Assembly: GCA_001899855.1 (NCBI GenBank)
Contig: MKWR01000001.1
Coordinates: 1-32,881, forward strand
DNA: 32,881 bases
Origin: Lysobacterales bacterium 63-13
Lineage (GTDB): Bacteria; Pseudomonadota; Gammaproteobacteria; Xanthomonadales; Rhodanobacteraceae
Direction: 5' to 3'
Shown here piece after piece: positions 3,199-18,891 of this stretch. The stretch's first letter is position 1. Each line of letters opens with the position of its first letter. A program made the position numbers and the translations under genes. The notes under the pieces are model-generated. The model ran no database searches. It was given only the letters and a program-made list of their open reading frames with translations, and was not told the DNA's origin.

Positions 3199-3405
3199 AT
3201 GAATTTAAAATCTGGCAACGTTCGAGACTTTGATCGCATTAATCTGCGGCTTTCGGCCGAAACGTTTGCGGCGCTCGATACGGCACGCACCGTTCGTCCC
3301 GGTAGTGTTTCACGCAACACTTGGATCACTGAAGCAATCGCTGAGAAGCTTACACGCGAGGGAGTCGCGAATAGTCGACTCGAAAGAGAAGTCGCCAATG
3401 GCTAA
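3199..3405 (+). CDS. Ribbon-helix-helix DNA-binding protein
   Basis: A 68-residue protein with the RHH (Arc/CopG-like) pattern: a short beta strand (RINLRLS), a helix (AETFAALDTAR), a turn with SVSRNTWI and a second helix (TEAIAEKLTRE). RHH dimers insert the strand into the DNA major groove and often repress their own operon. It overlaps the methyltransferase start by 8 bp, so it is the first gene of the cassette and probably controls it. This would be analogous to C-proteins of restriction-modification loci, although those are normally HTH proteins. The bases just before the ATG hold a direct repeat (TGGCACCA twice, 3181-3198), and a 20-bp palindrome lies further upstream. Either may be its operator. 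Confidence 0.75.
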   Translation: MNLKSGNVRDFDRINLRLSAETFAALDTARTVRPGSVSRNTWITEAIAEKLTREGVANSRLEREVANG

Positions 3406-4546
3406 GTTCTATGAATTTTTCGCTGGTGGAGGCATGGCGCGCGCAGGGCTTGGAGCTGAATGGGAATGTGTCTTCGCCAACGACTTCGATCACAAGAAGG
3501 GCCTGACATACCAAGCGAATTGGGGGACGAATGGTGAGTTGAGAGTTGGCGATGTCAAGCAACTCACAGCCGCTGATCTACCAGGCACCGCCGATTTGGT
3601 GTGGGGTTCATTTCCCTGTCAGGACCTGTCGCTCGCCGGTGGCGGTGCAGGCCTTCGTGGCGAACGCTCGGGTACCTACTATCCCTTCTGGGATATAATT
3701 AGGGGGCTGATCGCAGACAATCGCGCCCCCAAATTGATTGCACTCGAGAACGTGTGCGGCACCTTGACGTCCCACGGCGGCAAGGACTTTCAAGCAATTT
3801 GTCAAACGTTTGCAGATGCAGGCTATCGTTGCGGCGCAGTGGTTATAAATGCAGCGCTCTTCCTACCGCAATCTCGGCCGCGACTTTTTGTGATCGGTAT
3901 TCATGCCGACGTGAAAGTGGATCCAGTGCTGATTGCGCCCGGTCCAATTGAGCCTTTCCATACGCGAGGACTTCAAAGCGCCGTAGACCGGTTGCCTGCC
4001 GGGCTGCAGGAAATGATGTTGTGGTGGAACGTACCCACACCTAGCCGACGCAACACCACATTCGCCAACATGATTGAGGAGAACCCGACGAGCGTTTCTT
4101 GGCATACGCCAGCGGAAACTCAGCAACTGTTGGCCATGATGTCACCGCTAAATCTTGCCAAGGTGAACGCTGCCAAGCGCGCAGGGCATCGTGTTGTAGG
4201 TGGCGTCTATAAGCGCACGCGGCTTAACGAGAAGGGCTTGAAGGTTCAACGTGCGGAGGTTCGTTTCGATGACATTTCGGGATGCCTTCGCACGCCATCT
4301 GGGGGATCGAGCCGGCAAGTGATTGTCGTCATTGACGGCACCAAAATTCGATCGCGTCTGATCTCTGCTCGCGAAACTGCACGCCTAATGGGCTTGGACG
4401 AAGGCTACAAGCTGCCTCGCAATTACAATGAGGCCTATCACCTTACCGGCGACGGCGTGGCGGTTCCGGTGGTCCGCCATATTGCCCACTACCTCTTGGA
4501 GCCCTTGTTGGACATGGCGAATGCGGTCGAGCGGGTTGCTGCATGA
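3398..4546 (+). CDS. DNA (cytosine-5-)-methyltransferase
   Basis: A 382-residue Dcm-type enzyme that transfers a methyl group from S-adenosylmethionine to C5 of cytosine. Motif I FAGGGMARAGL is at 8-18 (SAM binding), motif IV GSFPCQDLS carries the catalytic Cys74, motif VI ENV is at 117-119, motif VIII QSRPR at 158-162, and motif X (LTGDGVAVPVV) lies near the C-terminus. All key motifs are intact. The open frame reaches back to 3230, but that part overlaps the RHH gene; the ATG at 3398 begins exactly at MAKFYEFFAG, where the family starts. The stop overlaps the next start as ATGA. The target-recognition region (about 185-290) gives no hint of the recognised sequence. In this context it is presumably the self-protecting modification enzyme. 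Confidence 0.95.
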   Translation: MAKFYEFFAGGGMARAGLGAEWECVFANDFDHKKGLTYQANWGTNGELRVGDVKQLTAADLPGTADLVWGSFPCQDLSLAGGGAGLRGERSGTYYPFWDIIRGLIADNRAPKLIALENVCGTLTSHGGKDFQAICQTFADAGYRCGAVVINAALFLPQSRPRLFVIGIHADVKVDPVLIAPGPIEPFHTRGLQSAVDRLPAGLQEMMLWWNVPTPSRRNTTFANMIEENPTSVSWHTPAETQQLLAMMSPLNLAKVNAAKRAGHRVVGGVYKRTRLNEKGLKVQRAEVRFDDISGCLRTPSGGSSRQVIVVIDGTKIRSRLISARETARLMGLDEGYKLPRNYNEAYHLTGDGVAVPVVRHIAHYLLEPLLDMANAVERVAA

Positions 4547-5403
4547 GCGCCATACCCTGCGAGCAGGATAGCGATCTGCGAGCGCAAATCGAGTTGTTCG
4601 CCGAGGTCCTCAAGACCCAGGCGCATCGGCTAGGCAATCACGGGTTGAACGAACGCGACTTCTACAATTCAGGTCTTTTCCGCGGCGCCGTTGAGCGCGT
4701 GCGAGGGCAGTTCTCCGCATCAATGGGTGCCAAGCGTGAGTTCGTACAACATGTCCTCAATTACATGGAGGATGAGAAATTTATCGCAGGATGGGACCCG
4801 ACGGGAGATTCGAAACGCAACGATTATTTAGTGCGCTTGCTAAGTGGTCGCACCGCCGTTATCGACCTGAAAGGTTGCCTCGACGGCAACAACACCAACA
4901 TATTCGAGCGGCCGGCTAATGCCGACGAATTCGTAATCTGGAGCATCTGCACCAATCTTGGAGCCGATCCCAGGCGGAATGTATGGTCCGGGATTCACAC
5001 CCGTCTAAGTGCTGAGATGATCTCTCGAAATCAGCGCGTCGATGGCGTGATCGTATGGGCTATGGCCTGCGCTACCATTGGCCGCCCATGTCCCAAGGTG
5101 ATCGGTAGTCCCAACAAGGACCGCCACACAGAAATCGGGCCTTTCCAAGTTCCGCCCGCGTGTATCTACCTGTTTCCCAGCACACTGCCGTCGATCGGAA
5201 CCCCTACCGTCTCATCGCAACCGATCGAGAGTGTTGAGCTGCTTTCTGCCTTCCATCGCTGTTTCAACGGCAACGATGCAGAGTTGAACCATGTCGATTT
5301 CGAGCTACGGCAAACTGGGCCTGAGTTGATGAGAAAAACTACAATTCGGCGCGCGGGCACCATCCAAAAAGTGTCGGAGATGTCGGGTATTCGGCGTGTC
5401 TAA
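4543..5403 (+). CDS. Cysteine-rich putative restriction subunit A
   Basis: A 286-residue protein that I do not recognise by name, coupled to the methyltransferase by a 4-bp ATGA overlap. It is clearly paralogous to the second gene downstream (5529-6380): five cysteines align (Cys112, 136, 176, 183, 207), as do VDGVI near 166, RPCPK at 181-185 and PPxC near 205. A hydrophobic strand ending in IDLK (107-110) just before the first cysteine could be the (D/E)xK half of a PD-(D/E)XK nuclease core, with acidic residues at 85-94 upstream. This is inference from pattern only. The position directly behind a C5-methyltransferase is the classical place for a type II restriction endonuclease. An alternative is a zinc-binding regulatory subunit. 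Confidence 0.6.
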   Translation: MSAIPCEQDSDLRAQIELFAEVLKTQAHRLGNHGLNERDFYNSGLFRGAVERVRGQFSASMGAKREFVQHVLNYMEDEKFIAGWDPTGDSKRNDYLVRLLSGRTAVIDLKGCLDGNNTNIFERPANADEFVIWSICTNLGADPRRNVWSGIHTRLSAEMISRNQRVDGVIVWAMACATIGRPCPKVIGSPNKDRHTEIGPFQVPPACIYLFPSTLPSIGTPTVSSQPIESVELLSAFHRCFNGNDAELNHVDFELRQTGPELMRKTTIRRAGTIQKVSEMSGIRRV

Positions 5404-5528
5404 TTCTCGAAGAAACTGCTCTCAGACTTCGTCTGCCGTTCTGATTCGCTGGTCAAAGCACCCTTTGGGTCGTTGAACTTGGAAGGACATTCGTTCAGTG
5501 AGTCTTAAATCAACACGGGGAATTTCTA

Positions 5529-6380
5529 ATGCCAGGTGAAACAGCCGCGCCATGCCGACATCCAGGAGCTCCACCTGATGAGATTATCGATCTCGTGGCG
5601 ACTGCGGTTAAATCTCTCGCATCAGACGTCGCATACCTCAAGAGTCGAGGACTCACACCGCAAGACTTTGCGCTCGCATTACCGGCAGCAATCCAGCGTA
5701 TCCGCGGGAGCGCTGCTGCAAGCAATTCCGATCGTCGGGTGTTCCTAGCGGACGTGTTTCGCCACATGGCTGATGTCGGCGCGATCACCCGGTTTGAGGT
5801 GCCGCAATACGGGGACGACACGGTCTACCGTCTTTACGTCAAAGGCTTGGGTAGTGTCGCGATCATTCAGAAGGGATGCCCCGACGGCAGGCATAGTAGC
5901 GTGGCATGGTCTGCGCCCGACTGGGCTGAAGAGACCTACTTGTGGTGGCTTTGCGATAGCCTCCAGTATGAACCAGGCGAGCATGTCGCCAAAGGCGTGA
6001 ACCGGCTTCGGAACCGCTTCTTTTCCAAAGAATACATTGATGCGGTTGATGGTGTGATCTTTCACAACGCTACCTGCGGTACTGCGTTGCGACCGTGCCC
6101 AAAGATGGGACGCGCAATTGCGATAAACGAACGGATGGTACCTCCACCCTGTGTATGGGTCATGCCCGAGAGAGCGGACGGCAACGACTGGAATTGGGAT
6201 GGTTCCCGCATCCGAAAATTTCCTAGGTTATTGCTGTCGGCTTTCGGCGTTGGCGAAGAAGAGGTGCCGCTTTACACCGGCCATGTTGGATTTCTGAAGG
6301 GAACGAGAGGAACTCGGACCACCATATCATCCAGGTATGGAGCAGGGTCGACCACGACATACAGGAGTGACTCACGTTGA
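5529..6380 (+). CDS. Cysteine-rich putative restriction subunit B (paralogue of A)
   Basis: A 283-residue paralogue of the preceding gene, separated from it by 125 bp with a GGGGA box ahead of the ATG. The aligned cysteines are 117, 142, 183, 190 and 208, with nearly the same spacing as in subunit A. The strand before the first cysteine ends in IIQK, so a PD-(D/E)XK core would here have Gln in place of Asp, a change that is tolerated in Mrr-like nucleases. VDGVIFHNATCG, RPCPKM and PPPCVWV are the most conserved stretches. Its TGA overlaps the TTG start of the ParB-like gene. Tandem non-identical copies suggest a heterodimer, perhaps for an asymmetric target, or one catalytic and one regulatory copy. 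Function unproven. Confidence 0.6.
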   Translation: MPGETAAPCRHPGAPPDEIIDLVATAVKSLASDVAYLKSRGLTPQDFALALPAAIQRIRGSAAASNSDRRVFLADVFRHMADVGAITRFEVPQYGDDTVYRLYVKGLGSVAIIQKGCPDGRHSSVAWSAPDWAEETYLWWLCDSLQYEPGEHVAKGVNRLRNRFFSKEYIDAVDGVIFHNATCGTALRPCPKMGRAIAINERMVPPPCVWVMPERADGNDWNWDGSRIRKFPRLLLSAFGVGEEEVPLYTGHVGFLKGTRGTRTTISSRYGAGSTTTYRSDSR

Positions 6381-7702
6381 ATCCCGTAATTGATCAGGAA
6401 CGAGCCGACTTTCTCGCAACACGTGTTGCGGGTGCGAAACTCCAACTCTTGCCACAATGGATGCGCCCGGAAAAGGAATTGCCGGTCGTCAATTTGCCAG
6501 TTGAATGGGTTTGTTTTTCAACACTCAATCACCGCACACGTGCCGAGCAGATGCGGGTAATCATGACGAGTGGTGTTGGCGACCTTTTTAACGGTGACCC
6601 GATGGGCCAAGCCGCTCAGGCTGCCCAACTCAAAATTCTCTCCGAGCAAGAGGGATTTGAGGAACTAAAGCAGGATCTTCGCGAACGAGGTCAACAAGAA
6701 CCCGCAGTCGTCACGGCGGAAGGTGTTTTGATCAATGGGAACAGGCGATCTGCAGGCCTACGGAACTTGTGGCTCGGGGAGGGCCTACCTTCTGCACGAT
6801 ATGTGCGAGCGTATGTATTGCCGTCCGATGCGACGACGGATGAACTGATCGATCTAGAAACCGAATTGCAGGTCGCGAAGGACTATCGTGAAGACTATTC
6901 CTGGGTCAACGAGGCGCTCCTCATCGAGGAGATCTTCGAATCATCAAACAAGGATTGGGATCGGGTTGCTTCGCGAATGCGCCTCAAACCCTCGGAGGTC
7001 AGGGTGCAGTATGAAAAACTGCAGCAGCTCCATCAACTGGTCGCGATGTCGAACAGCACTCGGTACCACGCGGATTTTGTTGCGAACGAATCCGCGTTTG
7101 AAGAACTCTCCAAACACGTCAAGGACAAATCCCCGGCGGAAGCTGCCTCGGTTCGCAGCGTGTACTTTCTGGGCACGCTGGCGGGTGTCAACTACCGCGA
7201 CCTACGGCACTTACGGCGAAAAGATGCGAGTTCGTTTGTTCGCGCAGAATTCGCTAGCGACCCGACGCTGACATCGCTACTCACGGTCGTCAATTCCACA
7301 GAAGCCAATGCGACGGACGATTTGATCGAAGATGTTCTCGGTGATGACCGTGGTACTGCTGACAACGAAAATGCAGACCTGACGTCCGTCCTTTCCTTTT
7401 TGGCTCAGCGTAAGCCTGATGAAATCGTCCCCCTTCCAGGGGGCGGCGAAGTGCCGATCGACAATCTCTTGGCATCTGTCAAGAACGCTGTGAACGCAGC
7501 GGCTAACGAGGCCAATGAGGACAGCAAGGATGCGCAAGCTGTCGTAGTCCCGATCGTTCGACTTACATCCGCGCGTGATGAGTTAATCCGTGTCGGTACG
7601 TCCTTAGCCAAGGCGCGTTCACACTACGACTGGGATGAAGAGATTTTCAAGACGCGGTTGTACGAGGTGAAGGCAGCGCTCGCGCATATTGAGACCCTCT
7701 GA
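6377..7702 (+). CDS. ParB/sulfiredoxin-fold (ParB N-terminal-like) protein
   Basis: A 441-residue protein. Residues 103-130 carry the ParB/Srx signature: a stretch ending RGQQEPAVV, then VLINGNRRSAGL with GNRR at 121-124. In the superfamily this motif binds nucleotide or phosphate (CTP in ParB, ATP in sulfiredoxin; some members are nucleases). The middle is helical, like the HTH part of ParB proteins, and the C-terminal half is acidic. The start is TTG at 6377, supported by AGGAG at 6363-6367 nine bases upstream and a TTGA overlap with the previous stop. The stop overlaps the helicase ATG by one base. ParB-like proteins accompany phosphorothioation, deazaguanine and other restriction-type loci. 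Here it is probably a DNA- or nucleotide-sensing subunit of the cassette. Confidence 0.8.
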   Translation: MNPVIDQERADFLATRVAGAKLQLLPQWMRPEKELPVVNLPVEWVCFSTLNHRTRAEQMRVIMTSGVGDLFNGDPMGQAAQAAQLKILSEQEGFEELKQDLRERGQQEPAVVTAEGVLINGNRRSAGLRNLWLGEGLPSARYVRAYVLPSDATTDELIDLETELQVAKDYREDYSWVNEALLIEEIFESSNKDWDRVASRMRLKPSEVRVQYEKLQQLHQLVAMSNSTRYHADFVANESAFEELSKHVKDKSPAEAASVRSVYFLGTLAGVNYRDLRHLRRKDASSFVRAEFASDPTLTSLLTVVNSTEANATDDLIEDVLGDDRGTADNENADLTSVLSFLAQRKPDEIVPLPGGGEVPIDNLLASVKNAVNAAANEANEDSKDAQAVVVPIVRLTSARDELIRVGTSLAKARSHYDWDEEIFKTRLYEVKAALAHIETL

Positions 7703-9606
7703 TGATTTCGGTCGAACTTTACCGCCAAGGTCGACCGACAGTCATAGTCGAACGCACCGACGACGGAAATCTTGGTGCTTGGGCTCGCCTCCAGGAGGCT
7801 CTGGCCCGCGGAATCGAGTCTGGCTCGCCATCGAGAACGGTGGTTCACGCTGATGTCTTCCTTGCTGAACTTAGCGTTCTGCGAGAGCTTCGAACTGTAT
7901 TCGGAGAGCGCATTGCGCTAGGTCCGACGCTTTCTGGACACTTGCGATCGATGGCTGCGGACAGGAGGTCTCGCGAAGCGGTTGTTGATGCCGGCAACCC
8001 GGACCTCGAAGCGCTGGAAGCATTAGAAATTGAGTTGGCGCAGGCGGGGTTCAAGCGAACTCTGCGAGATTTCCAGATTAGAAATCTCTACCGTCTAGTG
8101 AGCCTTCCTCATGGTGCTGATTTTTCAGTTCCAGGTGCAGGCAAGACAACAGTGTCTTTGGCGGGATACGCGATCCTTCGGGCGCGAGGCATCGTGAGTC
8201 GCCTCGCTGTAATCGGCCCGATTGCCGCGTTCGGTGCGTGGAAGGAAGATCTCGTTGAATGCTTCCACGTACCCCCGAAACTAATCATCCATGCCGGAAC
8301 CGCGACGGTTATTCCCAAGAATACGGAGGTTTTGCTCTCCAATTACCATCGAGCCGCGAACGATTATGACGCTGTCAGAGAGTTCGTTGCTAAAGAACCG
8401 ACTCAGCTTGTGTTGGACGAGGCCCACCGGATCAAACGCGGCGCAGCTGGTGTTCATGGTCGTGCCGTCTTGGACCTCGCTTATGCAGCGCGACGCCGCG
8501 ACGTGCTTACCGGCACCCCGGCGCCACAGGGCGCATTCGATCTTGTCGCATTAGTCAGCTTTTTATATCCAGGCCAGGATCGCCAAATCCTTCCCGATGC
8601 AACGTACTTTGAGAAGCTAGGCCGCGATGAATCGGTCTTGATCGATACGAATGCGGCTGTCCGCCGCTATTTCGTCCGCACAGCCAAAGCCGAACTACGT
8701 CTCCCTGAAACCCGTTTTGAGGTAATTCGGGAACCGATGCCGCCCATCCAAGCCGCAATCTACGACGCCCTACTAGGGCAGTATCGGTCCAGCTTCATCT
8801 TGCCTGACCGAGGTCGTCATCAGATGCAGAGATTGGGCCGCATTGTGATGTATCTACTTGAAGCGGCAACGAATCCAATGCTGTTGACGGCAGGTTCTGA
8901 CGATGGCGATGACCCAGCGCTTGTCCATCCGCCGCTAGAGCTTCACGGCGGCGAAAGACTCGTTGATCTTTTGGCACGCTACAGTAGTTTTGAAGAACCC
9001 TGGAAATATCAACGTATCTCAAAAATTGTAGCGGATGCAGCGTCTCGCAACGAGAAGATCCTCGTCTGGTCGAGTTTTGTTCGAAACCTCAAATCCCTGG
9101 ACCGTCGTTTGGCAGAGTTCGAGCCCGCAATCGTGCATGGTGGTGTGCCGTCTGATGAACTCGCCGCGGTGGACGTCGTCACCCGCGAACGTGAGTTCGA
9201 CCGCTTTCGGCATGATCCGGCCTGCACGGTCCTTTTGGCGAACCCGGCGGCATGTGGAGAAGGCGTAAGCTTGCACCATTGGTGCCACCACGCTGTATAT
9301 CTAGACCGAACTTTCAACGCTGGACATTTCCTGCAGAGCCAAGATCGCATTCATCGGTTGGGCCTCGCCGACAACATTCTTACTCGTTTTACTCTGCTCC
9401 TAAGTGCTGGGACTATCGACGACTCTGTAGACGGGCGTCTGGTTGAGAAAGTCACAGCACTATCGAGACTGATGGACGATCCGGACTTGGTCCAGATTGC
9501 ACTTCCCTCTTCGGACGAAGGCTTAGATGGCGCGCCAGCATTCGATGACGACTATCAGGCTGTCGTCGCTCACCTAGCGGATACCAATGCGCGATCTGCC
9601 GAGTAG
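7702..9606 (+). CDS. SNF2-family (SF2) DNA helicase/translocase
   Basis: A 634-residue ATP-dependent translocase. It has an N-terminal extension of about 115 residues, then the SF2 core: Q-like RDFQ near 122, motif I PGAGKT at 144-149, motif II DEAH at 239-242, motif III LTGTP at 269-273, motif V (NPAACGEGVSLH) and motif VI QSQDRIHRLG at 545-554, which is typical of SNF2 proteins. All catalytic residues are present. It is translationally coupled to the ParB-like gene (TGATG) and overlaps the next gene by 20 bp. SNF2 translocases drive DNA scanning or remodelling in DISARM, Dpd and type I/III-like restriction systems. A similar motor role is likely here, working with the putative nucleases encoded around it. 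Confidence 0.9.
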   Translation: MISVELYRQGRPTVIVERTDDGNLGAWARLQEALARGIESGSPSRTVVHADVFLAELSVLRELRTVFGERIALGPTLSGHLRSMAADRRSREAVVDAGNPDLEALEALEIELAQAGFKRTLRDFQIRNLYRLVSLPHGADFSVPGAGKTTVSLAGYAILRARGIVSRLAVIGPIAAFGAWKEDLVECFHVPPKLIIHAGTATVIPKNTEVLLSNYHRAANDYDAVREFVAKEPTQLVLDEAHRIKRGAAGVHGRAVLDLAYAARRRDVLTGTPAPQGAFDLVALVSFLYPGQDRQILPDATYFEKLGRDESVLIDTNAAVRRYFVRTAKAELRLPETRFEVIREPMPPIQAAIYDALLGQYRSSFILPDRGRHQMQRLGRIVMYLLEAATNPMLLTAGSDDGDDPALVHPPLELHGGERLVDLLARYSSFEEPWKYQRISKIVADAASRNEKILVWSSFVRNLKSLDRRLAEFEPAIVHGGVPSDELAAVDVVTREREFDRFRHDPACTVLLANPAACGEGVSLHHWCHHAVYLDRTFNAGHFLQSQDRIHRLGLADNILTRFTLLLSAGTIDDSVDGRLVEKVTALSRLMDDPDLVQIALPSSDEGLDGAPAFDDDYQAVVAHLADTNARSAE

Positions 9607-10507
9607 AGGCCGGTGCCACGCCGCCTTCCTTCTTGCCTATAGCGCTCGAGTTCGAAATTGCGCGAACTTAACCGAGTGGGTTGCCGCAGCGTCGGAAAAG
9701 CCAACGCATATGGCGGCATCGTTGGATCTCCTTGGTACAGCCTATTTGCTTCTCGATACGAAATTAGCCCGCGCAAAGCATAAAATAGTGACCGGTCGCG
9801 ACCTAGCGCGTTTGGATTCGGTGGCCGATCTCACGACGTTTAAGGGGATTGCGCACTTGCTCTTGGGCCGGCGACCTCCTGATTGGCTTCGGGCCGTGGT
9901 GGCTGACGGGAAGCTCGCCATAGAGTTCATTCCAAAACAGGATCTTGAAGCAATTTCTTGGCTCGGCGACGACCTTGAACCAATCATAACTTCCGTATAT
10001 CGCCAACACTACGGCGAAGATGACGCTCTTCGCCGCAAGATGCTAGGAGATGCCGGGGAGTTGGCCGTAATGTCCGCGTTTCGTTCGAAAGGCTGCAATC
10101 CGCGACATGTTGCGTTAGTTTCTGATCGCTTTGGCTATGATGTTGAGCTTCAGAGCAACCACTTCCGCTACGGATACGAGGTCAAGACGGCAGTAGCGGC
10201 GACTGCTTCACGCATCTTGGTTTCAAGACACGAATTCGAAGTTGCAGCGGCAATGGGGGACAGATGGAGACTAATCCAAGTCACATTCTCAACCAAGATT
10301 TTCTTAGTCGGACGAGCAACTTGTAACGATATAGTTGATATTCGTGAGTTGACAAGCGAACGGCTCCGAAGTATTGCACCCATCGAACCCGCGACTTTCA
10401 GATGGACAGAAACTGCTGAATTTCGTCCTTTGGCGACTGATTGGTCTGCGAACGATCTCGCCGTCGGCAATGATTTCGAAGCTAGTCTCGAGCCTGGGAC
10501 CGCGTAG
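9587..10507 (+). CDS. DUF3883-like PD-(D/E)XK nuclease
   Basis: A 306-residue protein. The C-terminal half has a textbook PD-(D/E)XK arrangement: GDAGELA with Glu158 in the first helix, then FGYD (Asp185), then YEVK (Glu198/Lys200) at the end of the next strand, followed by a helix starting SRHEFEVA. This matches DUF3883/NERD-like nuclease domains found at the C-terminus of defence proteins. Residues 1-140 are helical and I do not recognise them. The ATG at 9587 overlaps the helicase end by 20 bp; a later start at Met42 is possible but would break the coupling. As last gene of the cassette with an apparently complete active site, it is the best candidate for the DNA-cleaving effector. Confidence 0.75.
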   Translation: MRDLPSRGRCHAAFLLAYSARVRNCANLTEWVAAASEKPTHMAASLDLLGTAYLLLDTKLARAKHKIVTGRDLARLDSVADLTTFKGIAHLLLGRRPPDWLRAVVADGKLAIEFIPKQDLEAISWLGDDLEPIITSVYRQHYGEDDALRRKMLGDAGELAVMSAFRSKGCNPRHVALVSDRFGYDVELQSNHFRYGYEVKTAVAATASRILVSRHEFEVAAAMGDRWRLIQVTFSTKIFLVGRATCNDIVDIRELTSERLRSIAPIEPATFRWTETAEFRPLATDWSANDLAVGNDFEASLEPGTA

Positions 10508-11144: not shown

Positions 11145-14100
11145 GTGGCGATCAAGGCGGTTTTCGTCGGGGTGAGCAAGCACTTGGACCCCGCCATTAA
11201 TGAGCTGGGCGGCGCGCGGCGCGATGCGCAGGCGTTGTGGGCGCTGTTTTCCGACACCATCGACGGGTTGGCGCCGACGCTGCTGCTCGACGAAGCGGCC
11301 ACCCACGAACGAATCCAGCAATCCGTGCTGGGGGCGCTGGAGTCGGCCACGGCCGACGACGTGGTGGTGATTTCCTTCGCCGGCCACGGCTCGCCCGATG
11401 GGCGTCTGGTGGCGTTCGACACCGAGATTTCGAACCTAACGGCGACTGGCATTGCGATGGCTGACCTGGCCGACGCGTTCAAGGCGAGCCGGGCCCGGGC
11501 CGTGCTGTGCGTTCTGGACTGCTGCTTTAGCGGACAGGCGCCTGCTCGCGTGCTCGAGTTGCAGGCGACACCGCGCAGTGCGTTCGCATTGACTGGCATA
11601 CAGGGAGAAGGGCGCATCCTCCTGGCGGCGTGCGCGCCTAACGAAGAAGCTTGGGAGCAGCCGGGCACAGGCCACGGCCTACTAACCTACGCGGTCATGC
11701 AGGCGTGGACGTGCGGAGAGGCCGCCACGGTGAGCTTTCCGGAACTGGCGGGCGAGATCATCCGCATCACCCGCGTGGAGGCCGAGCGCCTGAGCCTCAC
11801 CCAGACGCCAACCTTTCTCGGTTCGATCCAAGGCGGGCTGGTATTTCCACGCCTGGTGCGCGGCGACAACTTCGCCGCCGTGTTTCCGTTGCATGCCATC
11901 CAGACGATGTCCGGCCAGTTCGCGGAGCTGGCGGCGCACGGCTTCCCGCCCGACGTGGTCGCGCAATGGACGAGCGACTTCCCCGACGGACTGAACGCGC
12001 TGCAGCTGCGGGCGGTGAACGAGTTCGGCGTACTCGCTGGCCGCTCATTGCTGGTGATCGCGCCCACGAGCTCGGGCAAGACGCTGGTGGGCGAACTGGC
12101 GGCACTGCGGGCGGTGACCGCCGGCCAGAAGGCGGTGTTCCTGCTGCCCTACAAAGCCTTGGTAAACGAAAAGTTCGAAGAGTTCACGGCGCGCTACGCC
12201 GCAGCAGGCCTGCGCGTCGTGCGCTGCAGCGGTGATGCCACAGACGGCGTCGGCCCGGTGCTGGCCGGGCGCTACGACCTGGCCTTCTTCACCTACGAGA
12301 TGTTCCTGAGCATGGCATTGGGATCACGGCGCCTGCTGCACCAGCTCGGTGTAGTGGTGGTGGACGAAGGCCAGTTCATTACCGATCCGCAGCGCGGCAT
12401 CAACGTGGAGCTCATCTTCTCGCTGTTGCTGCGCGCCCGCGAGCACGGCGTCGAACCCCAGCTGCTGGTCCTGTCGGCCGTGCTCGGCCAGCTCAACGGG
12501 TTCGACCAGTGGCTGGGCCTACCCCTGCTGCTGTCGCGCGAACGGCCGGTGCCTTTGGTCGAAGGCGTGCTCGATCGCCAAGGCCAGTTCCAGTTCCTGG
12601 ACACCGACGGCACCACCAAGATCGAAGCCTTACTTCCGCCGCAAGCCATCCGGGTGCGCGGTGACAAGCCCGGCTCGCAGGATGTGATCGTGCCCTTGGC
12701 CAAGAAGTTGGTCGGCGCCGGAGAGAAGTTGCTGGTGTTTCGCAATGCGAGAGGTCCCACGCAAGGGTGTGCGCGGTACCTGGCCAACGAGCTGGGCTTG
12801 CCGCCAGCCACGGCCGTGCTCGACGCACTGCCGACCCAAGACCTGCCCGGGGCATCGCTCGGCTTGCGCGCTTGCCTGCGCGGGGGCACCGCATTCCACA
12901 ACACCAACTTGCTGCGTCCCGAGCGTGAGGCCGTCGAGCGCGGCTACCGCGATCGCGCTGGCGGGATCCATGCCTTGGTTTCGACCACGACCCTGGCCGC
13001 GGGGATCAACACGCCCGCCTCTACGGTGGTGCTGGTGGAGCACGAGTTCTTCGGCGAGACCATCCAGCCGTTCACCGTCGCCGAATACAAGAACATGGCC
13101 GGCCGCGCCGGCCGCGTAGGTTTCAACGAAATCGGAAAATCCATCCTCCTGGCCGAAACGCCCATCGAGCGGGCGCAGCTGTTCCAGCGCTATGTGATGG
13201 GGCAGCCGGCTGAGGTTCAATCCTCCTTCCAGCCCCGCGATTTGCCGACGTGGACCTTGCGCTTGCTCAGCCAGGTGCGCGGCGTGCGCGAGGACGAGAT
13301 TCCGCGCCTGCTTCTGAACACCTTCGGCGGCTACTCGGCCTCGCGCGCTAACCCGCAATGGGTTGCCCAGGTGGGACAGGACATCGCGCGCCTAGTCACG
13401 CGTCTGTTGGCCACCGGCTTGGCCGAGCGCGAAGGCGAGCTGGTGCACCTGACCTTGCTGGGCCGCGCCTGCGGCGCGTCGTCCTTGTCGCTCGAATCGA
13501 GCCTGCGGCTGGTCGAATTGTTGCAGCAGGTCGAGGTGGGATCCACGCCGCCGTTCCACCTGCTGGCCTTGGTGCAGGTGCTCGATGAAATGGACGGCAT
13601 CTACACGCCGCTGATGAAGCGCGGTCAGAGCGAAAGCAAGCGCGTGGCGGAAGCGAGCCAGCGCTTCGGGCACGCCCGCGTGCGTGCGCTGCAGCGTTTT
13701 TGCCGCGAGAACACGGACCTGTGGGCGCGTTGCAAGCGCGCCGCCATGCTCTATGACTGGATCGAAGGTGACGCGGTCGAGGCGATCGAAAAGCGTTACT
13801 CGACCACTCCATACCAAGGCAGCATCGAATACGGCAACATCGTCGGTATCGCCGATGCCACGCGTTACCACCTGCGCTCGGCGCACCGGATCATCGCCAA
13901 CTTGCTGCTCGACCAACCCGAGTTCCTGCTCGGGCTCGACGAAATCTTGCTGCGCCTTGAATTTGGATTGCCGGCCGCCCTGCTTCCGCTCACCCGCTTG
14001 CCGGCCGCGCTCGCGCGCGGACAGATGCTTGCCTTGGCCCAAGTCGGTGTGCGCGATATCGATGCCCTGGCGGAACTGGACAAGGCCACCCTCTTGCAAT

Positions 14101-14150
14101 GCGTTGGCCCCGCAGTGCTGGCGCGGCTGCGCCCGCCAGCGGAAGATTAG
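11145..14150 (+). CDS. Caspase-like protease fused to Ski2-like DExH helicase
   Basis: A 1001-residue fusion. Residues 1-230 form a C14 caspase/metacaspase-like domain with the catalytic pair His81 (ISFAGHGS) and Cys127 (LDCCFSG). From about 270 follows an SF2 helicase: Gln277 (Q motif), Walker A APTSSGKT at 296-303, LPYKALVNEK (Ia), DEGQ at 397-400 in place of DEAD/DEAH, then TTLAAGINTP (V) and MAGRAGRVG (VI), the Ski2/Hel308 form. The C-terminal third is helical and ends in a helix-hairpin-helix-like segment (LLQCVGPAVLARL). The start is GTG with GGAGG four bases upstream. GC content is visibly higher than in the previous cassette, implying separate origin. I infer that nucleic-acid sensing by the helicase activates proteolysis, perhaps as abortive infection. 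The protease target is unknown. Confidence 0.88.
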   Translation: MAIKAVFVGVSKHLDPAINELGGARRDAQALWALFSDTIDGLAPTLLLDEAATHERIQQSVLGALESATADDVVVISFAGHGSPDGRLVAFDTEISNLTATGIAMADLADAFKASRARAVLCVLDCCFSGQAPARVLELQATPRSAFALTGIQGEGRILLAACAPNEEAWEQPGTGHGLLTYAVMQAWTCGEAATVSFPELAGEIIRITRVEAERLSLTQTPTFLGSIQGGLVFPRLVRGDNFAAVFPLHAIQTMSGQFAELAAHGFPPDVVAQWTSDFPDGLNALQLRAVNEFGVLAGRSLLVIAPTSSGKTLVGELAALRAVTAGQKAVFLLPYKALVNEKFEEFTARYAAAGLRVVRCSGDATDGVGPVLAGRYDLAFFTYEMFLSMALGSRRLLHQLGVVVVDEGQFITDPQRGINVELIFSLLLRAREHGVEPQLLVLSAVLGQLNGFDQWLGLPLLLSRERPVPLVEGVLDRQGQFQFLDTDGTTKIEALLPPQAIRVRGDKPGSQDVIVPLAKKLVGAGEKLLVFRNARGPTQGCARYLANELGLPPATAVLDALPTQDLPGASLGLRACLRGGTAFHNTNLLRPEREAVERGYRDRAGGIHALVSTTTLAAGINTPASTVVLVEHEFFGETIQPFTVAEYKNMAGRAGRVGFNEIGKSILLAETPIERAQLFQRYVMGQPAEVQSSFQPRDLPTWTLRLLSQVRGVREDEIPRLLLNTFGGYSASRANPQWVAQVGQDIARLVTRLLATGLAEREGELVHLTLLGRACGASSLSLESSLRLVELLQQVEVGSTPPFHLLALVQVLDEMDGIYTPLMKRGQSESKRVAEASQRFGHARVRALQRFCRENTDLWARCKRAAMLYDWIEGDAVEAIEKRYSTTPYQGSIEYGNIVGIADATRYHLRSAHRIIANLLLDQPEFLLGLDEILLRLEFGLPAALLPLTRLPAALARGQMLALAQVGVRDIDALAELDKATLLQCVGPAVLARLRPPAED

Positions 14151-14167
14151 CGGGCACGGAGAAAGAC

Positions 14168-14866
14168 ATGGCCATAGAAATTCTGGTTGACGTGCGAGGC
14201 GAAAGTTTCGCCAACGACGACGGTAGCTCGCGCCAGGACATCATTCGCACGCTGAAGGTGGGCGCACCGGTGCAACTGGTAGCCGATCCGCTCAATCCGC
14301 ACGATCGGTGGGCCGTGAAAGTGGTTACGCCCGCCGGACAGATTGGCTTCTTGCCCTCGGATGCGCGCGACGCCGATGCGGTGCTCAGGGGCGAACCCAT
14401 CAGCGCCACCATCCACGCCGTGCACGGCGGCACCAACTGGTTCCAGCAACTCCTCGGCAAACGCTCGGTCGGTGTCGTGCTCAAGGTGCGAAAGTCGGAC
14501 CCGGACTGGTCGCGCAGGGCGCAGTTGGAAGCACTTGCCGCACCCGTCGATGCCCAAGTTCAGGCGGCGCTGGCGCTGGAGGAAAGCGGCGACGCGCCAT
14601 CAGCGATTGTGGCGATGCAAGAGGCAATCGCGCGCATCTATGTTTTTACCCAAGCCGATGCCTGCGCGTCCGCGCACCGACGTTTGGCAGCTCCGATCGA
14701 CCGGCTGAGCCTGCTGCTGGAGCGGGCGCGACGTTTTCCCGAAGCCCTGGAAGTACTGGATGTATGGCAGCGCACCTTTGACCCCGTGCAGCCGGGGGCG
14801 CAGGTGGCGCAGACCTTGCGCAAACGTACCGAACGAATGCGCGCCAAGAGTGGCCAAACCAAGTAA
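14168..14866 (+). CDS. HIRAN-domain protein
   Basis: A 232-residue protein that begins 17 bp after the caspase-helicase, with GGAGA ahead of its ATG. Residues about 5-95 match the HIRAN pattern: VDVRGESFAN, VGAPVQLVADPLNPHD, WAVKVV and GQIGFLPSDAR. HIRAN domains (HLTF, Rad5 and many bacterial proteins) bind single-stranded DNA 3' ends or damaged DNA. The C-terminal half is helical, with TPR-like repeats (AALALEESGDAPSAIVAMQE and a later ERARRFPEALEVLD unit). It probably recognises unusual DNA ends and works with the helicase-protease as a two-gene system. The frame extends upstream to 14099 inside the previous gene, but the start at 14168 removes the overlap and gives a proper HIRAN N-terminus. 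Confidence 0.8.
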   Translation: MAIEILVDVRGESFANDDGSSRQDIIRTLKVGAPVQLVADPLNPHDRWAVKVVTPAGQIGFLPSDARDADAVLRGEPISATIHAVHGGTNWFQQLLGKRSVGVVLKVRKSDPDWSRRAQLEALAAPVDAQVQAALALEESGDAPSAIVAMQEAIARIYVFTQADACASAHRRLAAPIDRLSLLLERARRFPEALEVLDVWQRTFDPVQPGAQVAQTLRKRTERMRAKSGQTK

Positions 14867-15099: not shown

Positions 15100-18000
15100 T
15101 TGGGTTGCATTCGCGTGAACATTCTTTGGGACGTTCCAATCACCTCGATCATCGCGCTCACTCCTGAGCATGCCGTAGTCGTCATGCGCGCGATTCTTCG
15201 AGCGGAGTGCGGCTACGCAAAGATAGGTCCAGCAGCACTGACGATCTCCGATCGTCTCACCGTGGCGGACGGCGGCATTGATGCCGAAATCAATTCACCA
15301 CCGGAACTTATCGTTCCAGCGGATTGCATTTTCTGGTCGGGACTCACAGGGTTTCAAATCAAGTCTGGAACAGCATTCAAACCCTGGACGAAAGGTGCGA
15401 TCCGCGGCGAGCTGCTGGACACCAAGGCGAAGCTGCATTCCGAGGTGGATCGCCTTTTTCGTCGGCAAGGGCGCTATACGCTGTTCTGCACGGGCCATGA
15501 CCTGACGCCGAAACAGCGCAGCGATTCGCGGGACCAGATTGCTGCAGTCCTCGTCGACGCAGGATTCGAGATAGACGAAGAACAGGTCGAGGTTCTCGGC
15601 GCTAGTCAGATCGCAGAATTTGCCGAATGCTATCCGGGAGTGGCGTCCCTGTTGATGACTGACCCAATTCAGGAGGCTTGGGTTCTCGCGGACTGGCAGC
15701 GTGACGTGCACATGGCCAACGCCTTCGAGGCATCCCCGGAGCAGTCCCACGTTATCGACCGAATTCGTGCGGGGCTGGCAGGTGAGAGCAAGCACATTCG
15801 TGTTCTCGGAGAGCCGGGCCTCGGGAAGACACGCATCGTGCTGGAGGCCGTCAAAGATCCCATCCTCGCGCCTTCCGTCCTTTACATACCGCACGGTTCA
15901 CAGTTCGGGCAGACGAAGCTTTTCCGCCAACTGCTCAAATCGGATCGTGACAAGCCGCTCGTGCTGGTCATCGACGAACTTCCGGAGTCTGAGCTGGCCG
16001 ACATATGGCGGCACCTGAAGCCACGTTGCGGCAGCTTGAAGATCGTGTCACTGGATCACGCCAGGGACGAAACCCATGACGAGGACATTGAGCGATTTGC
16101 CGTCCCCCGCCTGCCCGATGAAACAATAAGAAAGATACTTGCCAGTCGAGTCGGCGAATCACACGAACTCGATCGATGGGTCACGATCTGCGAGGGTTCT
16201 CCACGAGTAGCCCAGGCGGTCGCCGACAACCTGCGCGCGAACCCGGATGACATACTTAAACCGCCCTCGACGGTACCCATTTGGGCGAGGTTCCTGCACG
16301 GCTATGGAAGCCGCGATGAAAGCTCGGCAAGACAGATTGATTGCGTCACCCAACACATAGCCTTGTTCAGCCGATTCGGCTATGAGTCTCCGGTGGGTTA
16401 CGAGGCGGTGTATATCGCCGAACTGATTCGAGAGGTGGATCCGACCATTGGATGGGCGCGGTTCCAAGAGATCATCCAGAATCTTCGTGCCAGAAGGGTG
16501 CTGCAGGGAAGCCGGACACTCTTCTTCGTACCCAAGGCGCTCCACATCTATTTGTGGAAGCAATTCTGGAGACACTACGGGCGCGGGTTCGACTTCGTAC
16601 AAACCTTCAATGCCATGCCCGAATCCTTGCACGCCTGGTTCATGGGCATGTTCAAGTTTGCCGGAGATGCCGCAACCGCCCATGTCATCGACGACATCCT
16701 GAAGACAGACGGCATATTCGCCGACCGTACTACGCTGACGTCGGATAAGGGTTCCCAATTTCTTTCTACGCTCGCCGAGGCCAATCCGGCCGCCGTGCTG
16801 AAGCTTCTTGAAGCTACGATCGGTCAATGGACGGATCAGGAGCTACTCGACTTCACGAAGAATCGGCAGAGCCTTGTCTGGGCGCTGGAGAAGATTGCAG
16901 TCTGGCCACCCCTGACTGTGAGGGCTATCCATCTGCTTGCCCGGCTCGCGGTCAACGAATGTTCCGATCACTCCAACAACTCGACGGGTACCTTGATGGG
17001 ACTGTTTCGCATCGGTCCCGAGGCCGCTGTCACGGAAGCATCGCCCCAAGCCCGACTGCCAGCTATGCTGAAGCTTCTCCGCACCCCCAGGGATGCGGAA
17101 CGTCGTCTCGCACTCAGGGCCATGGACTCTGCGCTCGATAGTCGCGGCATGGGCATGCGCATGGTTGGGCCGGAATACCAAGGACTTCGGGAGCGAGCCA
17201 AGCTCTGGATGCCTGCAACTTACGGTGACTGGTGGCAGGCCCAGTTCGCGTATTTCCAAGCTCTGGTCAATGAAACGCAGGACTGGCCGCCCGTCCTGCG
17301 CACCGAGGTTTGCCAAACCTTGCTGAACGCTGTGGAGCAGCAGATCTGTACTCCTCCCTGTACCGAGTTGGCGTTCCAGCTGCTGAACGTACTAGTCGAC
17401 GACAAGGCCATGCTGCCGGAAAAGGTGAATGGCTTCTTCTCGAATTGGCAAGAGTACAAAAACGATGGCAAGCATCCCGAGATTGCAAAACGCCTTCGGG
17501 ATCTCGAACGCCACTACACAAAGCAAGATCTCGCAAGCAGATTCCGGCGCTACGTCATCGATGTGAGTTGGCAGGAGTGGGATGAAGATTTCCGTGAAAG
17601 CGCCGAGAAGCCCAAAAACCGCGCCAAGACACTGGTCACGGCTTTAGCCCATCGCATCGCGCGGCATCCGGAGACACTGAACCAGATTCGGCATCTCCTC
17701 GCTCCCGCATCAAATGCACCTGCACTATGGCATTTCGGATCGCAGCTGGCGTCTGCCGATACGTCGCGAGCGTTACTGCCAGTTCTCGTCCAGGTGACTC
17801 TGGAGACAAAGCACCAGACGTGCCTGCTCGGGTACCTATCAGACGTACTGATATGCGATCTTACGCTCTATCTCTCCACGGTTCGTAGCCTTCTGGACGC
17901 GGAGACCTCTGCGTGGCTTGGGGTCACCATCGCCCTTTATTCAGCCTATGACGATGAGCTGTTCGAGCGGTGCCTGGATGCACTGCAAAAGCGATGGGCC

Positions 18001-18891
18001 GACCCGCAGCTTTTCGGGATGCTCCGGTACGGCAAGGCCATCGAATCGGTTCCCCCGGAAAGAGCCCGACGCCTGTTTTGCCTGCTGAACGAATTCGACA
18101 CTCAAGAGGCGCTGTTTCTACTGGTCGAACTGCTGGACTCGATTCCGTTCAACGGCTCCTCGCCCTTCACTTCGGACTTCGTATTTCGGATCGTTTCGGA
18201 GTCTGTCCCTGGCGAGAATGGCCGGGACGTGATGCGTGGCTACCATTGGAAGAATATCTGCTTAAAATTGATCAATTGGGACGTGAGTCGAGCACTCCCG
18301 TTTCTGGATGTCTTGCTCACCCAGATGGGGAAAACGTACGAGTTGAGCTACGACACTGATGCAAAGCCATTGGCGGATGAACTCGTCCGAGCCGATCCGC
18401 AAGGCGCGTGGACTCTTGTGAAGAAGCATTTCGAAGATACTCTTCCCAAATGGCGGAGTGACATTCTGAGCTGGCTCAAGGGTGGGCTGCATACCTTCAA
18501 TGAAGGCACCCCTAGAGGGGCGATTGCGGATCTTCCGCTTTCGGAAATTCTTACATGGATCGAACAGGAGCCCGAGCCCAGGGCTGTGATGATGGCTCAC
18601 GCCGCTCTTCGAACACTTGACGATGAATCAGGTGGGCAATTGACTCGGGAATTGCTGTACAGATACGGACAGTTCAAGGGTGTTCGAAATGGCATCAGCG
18701 CCACTTTTCACTCCGGAGGATGGAGCGGTCCTACGAGTGTTTACCTGAAGCGAAAGCGTGACAAATTTCGTCACTGGCTGGCGGCCGGCTTCGAGGTCGA
18801 AATCACGCAGTGGATCGAAAGTGAGATCGAGTACCTGGATCGACGCATCGAGCAAGAGGAAATCGACGAGGAGCGTTCCCGATTCGATTGA
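15100..18891 (+). CDS. STAND-type NTPase with N-terminal PD-(D/E)XK nuclease (Avs-like)
   Basis: A 1263-residue protein. Residues 45-130 look like an Mrr/Cap4-type nuclease: ADGGIDAEI with Asp61, then FQIKSG with Gln86 and Lys88. Next comes a P-loop: Walker A GEPGLGKT at 237-244 and Walker B VLVIDE at 288-293, with a STAND-like winged-helix region behind. The remaining ~750 residues are helical repeats without a clear signature and would be the sensor. The plan (nuclease, STAND ATPase, long sensor) is that of antiviral Avs proteins, which oligomerise on binding a phage protein and degrade DNA; this one is shorter than the best-known members. The start is uncertain: TTG at 15100, GTG at 15115 or ATG at 15184, none with a clear ribosome site. 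It stands alone, with its own likely terminator. Confidence 0.78.
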   Translation: MGCIRVNILWDVPITSIIALTPEHAVVVMRAILRAECGYAKIGPAALTISDRLTVADGGIDAEINSPPELIVPADCIFWSGLTGFQIKSGTAFKPWTKGAIRGELLDTKAKLHSEVDRLFRRQGRYTLFCTGHDLTPKQRSDSRDQIAAVLVDAGFEIDEEQVEVLGASQIAEFAECYPGVASLLMTDPIQEAWVLADWQRDVHMANAFEASPEQSHVIDRIRAGLAGESKHIRVLGEPGLGKTRIVLEAVKDPILAPSVLYIPHGSQFGQTKLFRQLLKSDRDKPLVLVIDELPESELADIWRHLKPRCGSLKIVSLDHARDETHDEDIERFAVPRLPDETIRKILASRVGESHELDRWVTICEGSPRVAQAVADNLRANPDDILKPPSTVPIWARFLHGYGSRDESSARQIDCVTQHIALFSRFGYESPVGYEAVYIAELIREVDPTIGWARFQEIIQNLRARRVLQGSRTLFFVPKALHIYLWKQFWRHYGRGFDFVQTFNAMPESLHAWFMGMFKFAGDAATAHVIDDILKTDGIFADRTTLTSDKGSQFLSTLAEANPAAVLKLLEATIGQWTDQELLDFTKNRQSLVWALEKIAVWPPLTVRAIHLLARLAVNECSDHSNNSTGTLMGLFRIGPEAAVTEASPQARLPAMLKLLRTPRDAERRLALRAMDSALDSRGMGMRMVGPEYQGLRERAKLWMPATYGDWWQAQFAYFQALVNETQDWPPVLRTEVCQTLLNAVEQQICTPPCTELAFQLLNVLVDDKAMLPEKVNGFFSNWQEYKNDGKHPEIAKRLRDLERHYTKQDLASRFRRYVIDVSWQEWDEDFRESAEKPKNRAKTLVTALAHRIARHPETLNQIRHLLAPASNAPALWHFGSQLASADTSRALLPVLVQVTLETKHQTCLLGYLSDVLICDLTLYLSTVRSLLDAETSAWLGVTIALYSAYDDELFERCLDALQKRWADPQLFGMLRYGKAIESVPPERARRLFCLLNEFDTQEALFLLVELLDSIPFNGSSPFTSDFVFRIVSESVPGENGRDVMRGYHWKNICLKLINWDVSRALPFLDVLLTQMGKTYELSYDTDAKPLADELVRADPQGAWTLVKKHFEDTLPKWRSDILSWLKGGLHTFNEGTPRGAIADLPLSEILTWIEQEPEPRAVMMAHAALRTLDDESGGQLTRELLYRYGQFKGVRNGISATFHSGGWSGPTSVYLKRKRDKFRHWLAAGFEVEITQWIESEIEYLDRRIEQEEIDEERSRFD

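Follow-up and report, generated by a model that had tools for sequence, protein, structure and literature searches.

The seven genes at positions 3199 to 10507 (+ strand) of a 32,881-nucleotide stretch of DNA from Lysobacterales bacterium 63-13 (contig MKWR01000001.1 of assembly GCA_001899855.1), the whole of which is here called the window, are organised as two modules. On the evidence of their sequences, a conventional type II restriction-modification (R-M) system is encoded by genes 1-3, and genes 4-7 form a separate, conserved module that encodes, in order, a paralogue of a type II restriction endonuclease (REase) without catalytic acids, a ParB-fold protein, a SNF2-family ATPase and a NOV_C/DUF3883 nuclease. 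Genes 4-7 probably represent an added and separable ATP-dependent restriction module, in which a killed type II REase would serve as the specificity subunit and the ParB-fold protein as a probable clamp or switch. All seven open reading frames (ORFs) of the original prediction, which had treated them as a single unnamed restriction or defence system, are real.

Two proteins, Cys-rich 1 (c1) and Cys-rich 2 (c2), lie on either side of the 125-bp gap (5404..5528) that separates the R-M genes from the module. The former (286 amino acids (aa); 4543..5403, +) is a type II REase homologue (PDLC03501 REase_II, 2.3e-120) with an intact D-x13-(D/E)-x-K motif, the catalytic codons being those of D94 (4822-4824), D108 (4864-4866) and K110 (4870-4872). 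In the latter (283 aa; 5529..6380, +) the codons at the motif positions are those of V99 (5823-5825), I113 (5865-5867) and a retained K115 (5871-5873). When 10 c1 and 17 c2 sequences are aligned, the c2 of loci L011, L014 and L060 being left out, the position of D94 is Asp in 10/10 c1 and 0/17 c2, that of D/E108 is an acid in 10/10 c1 and 0/17 c2, and the motif Lys is retained in 17/17 c2, with acid changed to aliphatic at the c2 acid positions in every aligned sequence. The two kinds of protein also form two clades in a tree, with support of 100/100. Judged by its sequence, c2 is a type II REase paralogue from which the catalytic acids have been lost; it may still bind the site of the methyltransferase (MTase), and is proposed here to be a site-recognition adaptor. 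Compared with the PDB, the c2 sequence gave chance-level matches only, and Foldseek with c2 returned no structure at E <= 0.001. That the pair are paralogues had been predicted and stands, the family being one of REases, but the sensing role predicted for them is dropped because both are REase homologues, of which one keeps the motif and the other has lost it.

Following c2 is a 441-aa ParB-fold protein (6377..7702, +) made up of a nucleotide-pocket domain with a GNRR box (6737-6748), a helix-turn-helix (HTH) domain and long C-terminal helices. By sequence it has no ParB match in the PDB, and the assignment uses the predicted fold, a ParB nucleotide pocket followed by the HTH domain, which places it in the ParB superfamily. 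The canonical ParB box is GERR; in the window's version G121, N122 and R124 are present in 24/24 aligned sequences. The protein may bind nucleotide, and a role as a nucleotide-dependent clamp or switch is proposed for it. The SNF2-family ATPase (634 aa; 7702..9606, +; PF00176 6.4e-12, Helicase_C 4.7e-6) is the proposed motor, its homologues carrying a Walker A pattern in 54/56 cases and a DEAH-type pattern in 49/56. The last gene (9587..10507, +; PF13020, 9.1e-7) encodes a NOV_C/DUF3883 PD-(D/E)XK nuclease with an intact active site of the form E/D/E-x-K, at E158 (10058-10060), D185 (10139-10141), E198 (10178-10180) and K200 (10184-10186), which is present in 41/41 homologues, although the 41 NOV_C and 56 SNF2 sequences include near-copies. 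NOV_C is the sole module member with a complete nuclease site, so that the loss of the site in the adaptor contrasts with its retention in the nuclease encoded alongside. Matches of NOV_C to parts of the TmtA, PDC-S36 and PD-T4-1 models are read as a shared domain only.

The first three genes can be recognised as a type II R-M system that is found elsewhere. They begin with a 68-aa ribbon-helix-helix (RHH; CopG-like) protein (3199..3405, +), without a Pfam match and a probable regulator of the system, which is followed by a 382-aa C5-cytosine DNA MTase (3398..4546, +; PF00145, 1.5e-46) that matches PDLC00028 DruM2 (2.7e-159) and PDLC03243 MTase_II (5e-106) in PADLOC, and whose gene overlaps that of c1 by 4 bp. 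The RHH protein shares 68% identity over 66 aa with the ORF preceding the MTase on a Sphingomonas naphthae plasmid (L055) and has relatives in Kozakia and Azospirillum (67% and 60% identity over 42-43 aa); its similarity to the CopG gene that occupies this position in Xanthomonas hyacinthi and Methylomonas is weak (29%, E 0.041). A tblastn search of plasmids with c1 matched 18 records, two of them at c2 level only, and no c1 relatives were found in viral contigs. In the regions opened from Xanthomonas hyacinthi, Methylocystis, Phaeobacter, Desulfosarcina, Methylomonas, Paracoccus tegillarcae and Roseobacter, the MTase-c1 pair has neither ParB nor SNF2 annotated close by; an RHH/CopG gene precedes the MTase in some of them (Xanthomonas, Methylomonas), and none of these records is among the 8 plasmid records matching ParB. 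The annotated order c2, ParB, SNF2, DUF3883 is found on ParB-matching plasmids of Rhizobium, Kozakia, Mesorhizobium (where an IS481 transposase gene precedes DUF3883) and Azospirillum, together with differing R-M sets. Genes 1-3 and 4-7 are therefore separable, because MTase-c1 stands without ParB and c2-ParB-SNF2-NOV_C is found with other R-M sets. The Kozakia c1 (L051 2093-2951) is annotated as two partial ORFs, and in Sphingomonas naphthae (L055 7732-9489) a partial c1 ORF comes after an IS256 transposase gene.

The prevalence of the module is low. Within Pseudomonadota ParB was found in 4/398 genomes at E <= 1e-6, the window's own genome included, one of the four being a lone ParB without adjoining SNF2, and within the window's family in 5/197 genomes at E <= 1e-3, again with its own included and two of them marginal. 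One peptide pattern, scanned through 84,980 species genomes, picked out 37 ParB loci. In all, 62 loci were reduced to 54 distinct ones by dropping ParBs more than 97% identical (five short loci are represented by a longer sequence), own-genome copies and the two weakest matches of the family search (L049, L050) being excluded from the counts. An adaptor of one of four types is present in 37/54 (18 c2, 13 BglII-type, 4 HNH-type and 2 Sau3AI C-domain); the rest comprise 4 with a relative of a Priestia protein (outside its REase part) and 13 with none recognised. SNF2 is present in 48/54 and NOV_C in 34/54, several of the absences being contig ends. A complete chromosome record also holds the module (L037), with SNF2 appearing as two overlapping ORFs. 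On a tree of the ParBs from 47 of the 54 loci the adaptor classes cluster (11 changes, where shuffling gives a mean of 25.7); c2 forms one group (98/97), as does HNH (87/79), and the BglII class needs four changes because L026, L039 (its 5' end cut) and L080 fall inside it.

In the NOV_C branch a dead REase is the rule, from which few loci depart, and the rule extends to part of the Gram-positive branch. ParB relatives are found in 52 Enterococcus plasmid records. An L. plantarum-type ParB occurs in 71 plasmid records, and of this Gram-positive branch seven regions beyond L. plantarum (one of them from Exiguobacterium) were inspected. In Enterococcus sp. DA9 and Lacticaseibacillus paracasei (L070, L071) ParB-SNF2 comes directly after the methyltransferase and endonuclease genes of a type III R-M system, and it comes after a protein of ~815-870 aa, HTH-type or uncharacterised, on other enterococcal plasmids (L065, L067, L069). 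In Collinsella (L040 8513-12834, L044 8516-15521) ParB-SNF2 follows a ~400-aa relative of the Priestia adaptor protein, and in L044 an 881-aa protein, PglZ-like by eye, comes next. Other neighbours include a DUF4928 fused to a Shedu SduA_C domain that adjoins a c2 module (L021 14063-15532), and a divergent protein, GHKL ATPase-like by eye, beside a ParB-SNF2-NOV_C-MTase set without a recognised adaptor (L080 6233-7756).

The adaptor is not always c2, and the ParB-SNF2-nuclease core also adjoins REase homologues of other families without catalytic residues. In the 13 loci of the BglII-type group the adaptor, of ~154 aa, lies between an N4/N6-MTase and ParB and matches BglII PF09195 (of 4 proteins scanned, two exceed the curated cut-off and two fall short of it), and it aligns to OkrAI, BstYI and BamHI. 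The BstYI-type enzymes have a variant E-x-Q motif that is catalytic. The catalytic Asp and Glu are missing in 13/13 adaptors (Glu being replaced by Gln, or by Cys in two), and the D...E-V-Q of the comparison BglII/BstYI REases is retained in 3/3. The gene order MTase-adaptor-ParB-SNF2-NOV_C is seen in the nine loci with neighbours listed, in none of which was a further REase recognised beside the operon. In these nine loci the compact operon is the sole restriction machinery recognised, a point in favour of restriction by the module alone. Searched against plasmids, the adaptor found Paracoccus itself only, and its live relatives were reached via the MTase.

A further adaptor, in Streptomyces and Streptosporangium, is a divergently transcribed protein without a Pfam match that was assigned via two annotated HNH endonuclease relatives, which adjoin C5-MTases in Rhodococcus and Acidithiobacillus. 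The His has become Arg and the Asn is gone in 3/3 aligned proteins, and both are retained in 2/2 comparison proteins; a fourth HNH-type protein (L031) is ambiguous, the His seemingly retained and the Asn not (by eye). The last group is related to Sau3AI, a type II REase in which the C-terminal half has a non-catalytic role. MutH-type enzymes have the motif E-x-K, and in an alignment the MutH-like C-terminal half of Sau3AI reads I-V-V-K at this place. In Lactiplantibacillus the Sau3AI C-terminal domain stands alone (3.6e-42 to 2reu; PF02976) and in Priestia it is in the N-terminal part of a 512-aa protein, both proteins having I-x-x-K at the E-x-K place. These differ from Sau3AI in that the C-terminal half is alone, or N-terminal in a longer protein, and near ParB and a PLD-SNF2 protein, the SNF2 protein here carrying a PLD-related region at its N-terminus (L. 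plantarum), with the HKD motif in 2/2. A NOV_C gene was not found in the loci of this group.

One MTase family is common to loci with c1 only, with c1 and c2, and with c2 only, with 18 non-Actinobacteria MTases being 53-82% identical to that of the window, and the Actinobacterial ones 33-35%. The MTase tree mixes c1-linked and c2-only loci: the MTase of L015 (c2 only), for example, groups with those of three plasmids that carry c1 alone, and that of Methylocystis (c1 only) is beside the window and Kozakia. This mixing is qualified by five c2-only MTases (L005, L012, L017, L022, L060) that lie outside the clade of c1-linked MTases; the L009 slice was out of frame, and its row and long branch are disregarded. 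At two dead-HNH loci the MTase shares 57-59% identity with the one beside the Rhodococcus HNH gene. In the BglII-type group, four MTases (of 13 loci) are 49-68% identical to three that adjoin annotated BglII/BstYI REases, the nearest plasmid MTases inspected (H110, H112 and H113, with H111 left out) being from Sphingobium (68%), Acinetobacter (58%) and Spirosoma (55%), each followed by an annotated BglII/BstYI REase, of which that of Sphingobium is a full-length BstYI match (5.7e-90). In three of the four adaptor groups the MTases have close relatives that stand elsewhere beside REases which appear to be live. MTases of one family beside both live-looking and dead REases are the chief evidence, of an indirect kind, for recognition of the MTase site by the dead proteins.

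It is proposed that c2 binds the unmethylated target site, which the MTase protects on the host, and that on foreign DNA the bound c2 would cause the ParB-fold protein to be loaded or switched. The ParB-fold protein would then engage the SNF2 motor, which would move DNA to NOV_C, and NOV_C would cut it. In this scheme the joint action of the four proteins, the cutting of DNA and the order of the steps are all putative. The module of the window sits behind a complete type II R-M system that probably shares its target. A broader suggestion, put forward tentatively, is that of a new R-M class, with a portable ParB-SNF2-nuclease core that takes its specificity from killed type II REases of at least four families (c1/c2, BglII/BstYI, HNH and Sau3AI/MutH), and in which a nucleotide-gated ParB-fold clamp may couple recognition to a motor-driven nuclease. 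Type II restriction enzymes combine recognition with cutting; if the suggestion is correct a restriction enzyme can become an exchangeable DNA-recognition subunit, and the repeated recruitment of dead REases beside one core would show that recognition is separable and reusable. ParB-fold proteins, which are familiar from chromosome partition, would become linked to restriction. As the site of BstYI is RGATCY, an RGATCY-type specificity is predicted for the BstYI-like group.

Other roles for a dead REase can be imagined. The module might be a suicide or addiction device, such that loss of methylation allows the dead REase to bind the chromosome and NOV_C to kill the cell, stabilising a mobile element and the R-M genes. 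A tyrosine recombinase gene precedes the cassette in the window, the module occurs on plasmids and it is linked to an MTase, all of which would fit, but it is also present in a complete chromosome record, and such behaviour is compatible with restriction as any R-M system can act so; as an explanation of the module it is unlikely. Alternatively the dead REase could be a brake, c2 competing with c1 for sites or forming heterodimers with it and so limiting self-cleavage, with ParB-SNF2-NOV_C repairing or clearing cleaved DNA. Homologous c1 and c2 are indeed co-encoded in the window, in Rhizobium (L002) and in Kozakia (L003/L051). However, there are c2 modules where no c1 was found (L010 and L016, both of which have a GIY-YIG gene instead, and L015 and L017), no live partner was recognised beside the dead protein in the nine listed BglII-group loci, and in Kozakia, as annotated, c1 is broken into partial ORFs and the module is four ordinary ORFs, so that a brake seems rather improbable.

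A single interdependent machine of all seven genes, joining modification, sensing, motor and nuclease as first predicted, would explain why the genes lie on one strand with near-continuous overlaps, but it is very doubtful given the 125-bp gap between c1 and c2, the presence of MTase-c1 without the rest on other plasmids, and the presence of genes 4-7 elsewhere with other REase candidates and R-M sets, or with none recognised. The genes of c2-ParB-SNF2-DUF3883 do stay together in other genomes. Least probable of all is that c2 and its counterparts in the other groups retain nuclease activity via substitute residues, making the module a multi-nuclease restriction complex. The motif Lys kept by every aligned c2 and the variant motif that BstYI-type sequences already carry speak for it; against it stand changes found in every aligned sequence, from acid to aliphatic in c2, from Glu to Gln or Cys in the BglII group and from His to Arg in 3/3 HNH proteins, as does the loss of the motif by unrelated families in the same gene context. 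A restriction module guided by a dead REase is the reading preferred here.

The surroundings of the cassette also contain genes that may be involved in mobility and defence. Directly upstream are three + strand ORFs (84-2994; 305, 196 and 495 aa), the third a tyrosine recombinase (PF00589, 2e-12) and the first two without a Pfam match, which may form a recombinase set for moving the island. Downstream, a caspase (Peptidase_C14) domain is fused to a DEAD helicase (11145-14150), matches HamB models and is likely a separate defence gene; its end is overlapped by a gene for a HIRAN-domain protein (14099-14866), and a 1263-aa protein (15100-18891) without a Pfam match is related to PD-Lambda-4_A (8.7e-29). 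Promoter-like sites number 5 against a shuffled mean of 3.7, near chance, and terminator-like sites 14 against 9.1 (sd 3.5), and neither is given weight.

The cassette as a set matched no named system in the libraries scanned (PADLOC, NCBIfam and Pfam), as had been predicted, and the contrasts drawn beforehand with DISARM, BREX, Dpd and Dnd/Ssp prove correct in outcome, the diagnostic genes of each not being among the matches. SNF2 matches DrmD/DrmA of DISARM at helicase level only (26.6 bits, where the DrmD cut-off is 610), the MTase matches DrmMII (1.4e-31) far below DruM2, and no DrmB or DrmC is among the matches listed. For BREX there are weak helicase-level BrxH matches of SNF2 only, with no PglZ or BrxC among the matches listed for the window proteins scanned; for Dpd, weak helicase-level DpdE matches of SNF2 only and no TGT-like DpdA; and for Dnd/Ssp, no DndC/SspD-type sulfur-transfer gene among those listed. 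SNF2 also matches ZorD of Zorya (best PADLOC match 1.1e-12; 23.6 bits against an NCBIfam cut-off of 1500), with no ZorA or ZorB among the matches listed. The MTase resembles DruM2 of Druantia type II, and no DruE, DruF or DruG is among the matches listed for the window proteins scanned. Genes 4-7 do not belong to type II R-M either, since c2 is without a complete catalytic motif. The literature matches listed include no published description of a ParB/dead-REase gene set, which is weak evidence of absence as most subscription journals and bioRxiv lie outside their coverage.

Some described systems share part of this logic, as far as the available portions of the published accounts go. In paraMORC/HEF_HK R-M systems accessory ATPase genes occur with a C5-MTase type II R-M system and Vsr, and ParBc is among the neighbouring domains, but the accessory ATPase is a GHKL one and those portions describe no dead-REase/ParB/SNF2/NOV_C module (PMC8011034, PMC2292703). 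SNF2 fused to DUF3883 has been noted in a DUF499 R-M operon (PMC3710099), DUF3883 having been called a REase domain already (PMC12839542, PMC3710099), and the BREX-related (BR) systems likewise have a Swi2/Snf2 motor and a REase-fold nuclease beside an MTase (PMC12839542). The BR systems are described as centred on DUF499, for which the window proteins scanned gave no match, and the BR 'inactive REase' is a helicase domain, read as a nucleotide sensor for BrxHII, and not a separate type II homologue (PMC12839542). The nearest known system in logic is CglI/NgoAVII, in which, according to the sections available, an MTase is accompanied by a restriction complex that depends on NTP and combines a nuclease subunit with a helicase-like ATPase (PMC4267653, PMC5737866). 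In that complex the R-protein acts as the nuclease and the ATPase belongs to the DEAD family (PMC4267653, PMC5737866); here NOV_C and SNF2 take the places of the PLD-family nuclease and DEAD-family ATPase, which sets the module outside that system, with a ParB-fold protein added and a dead REase proposed for recognition.

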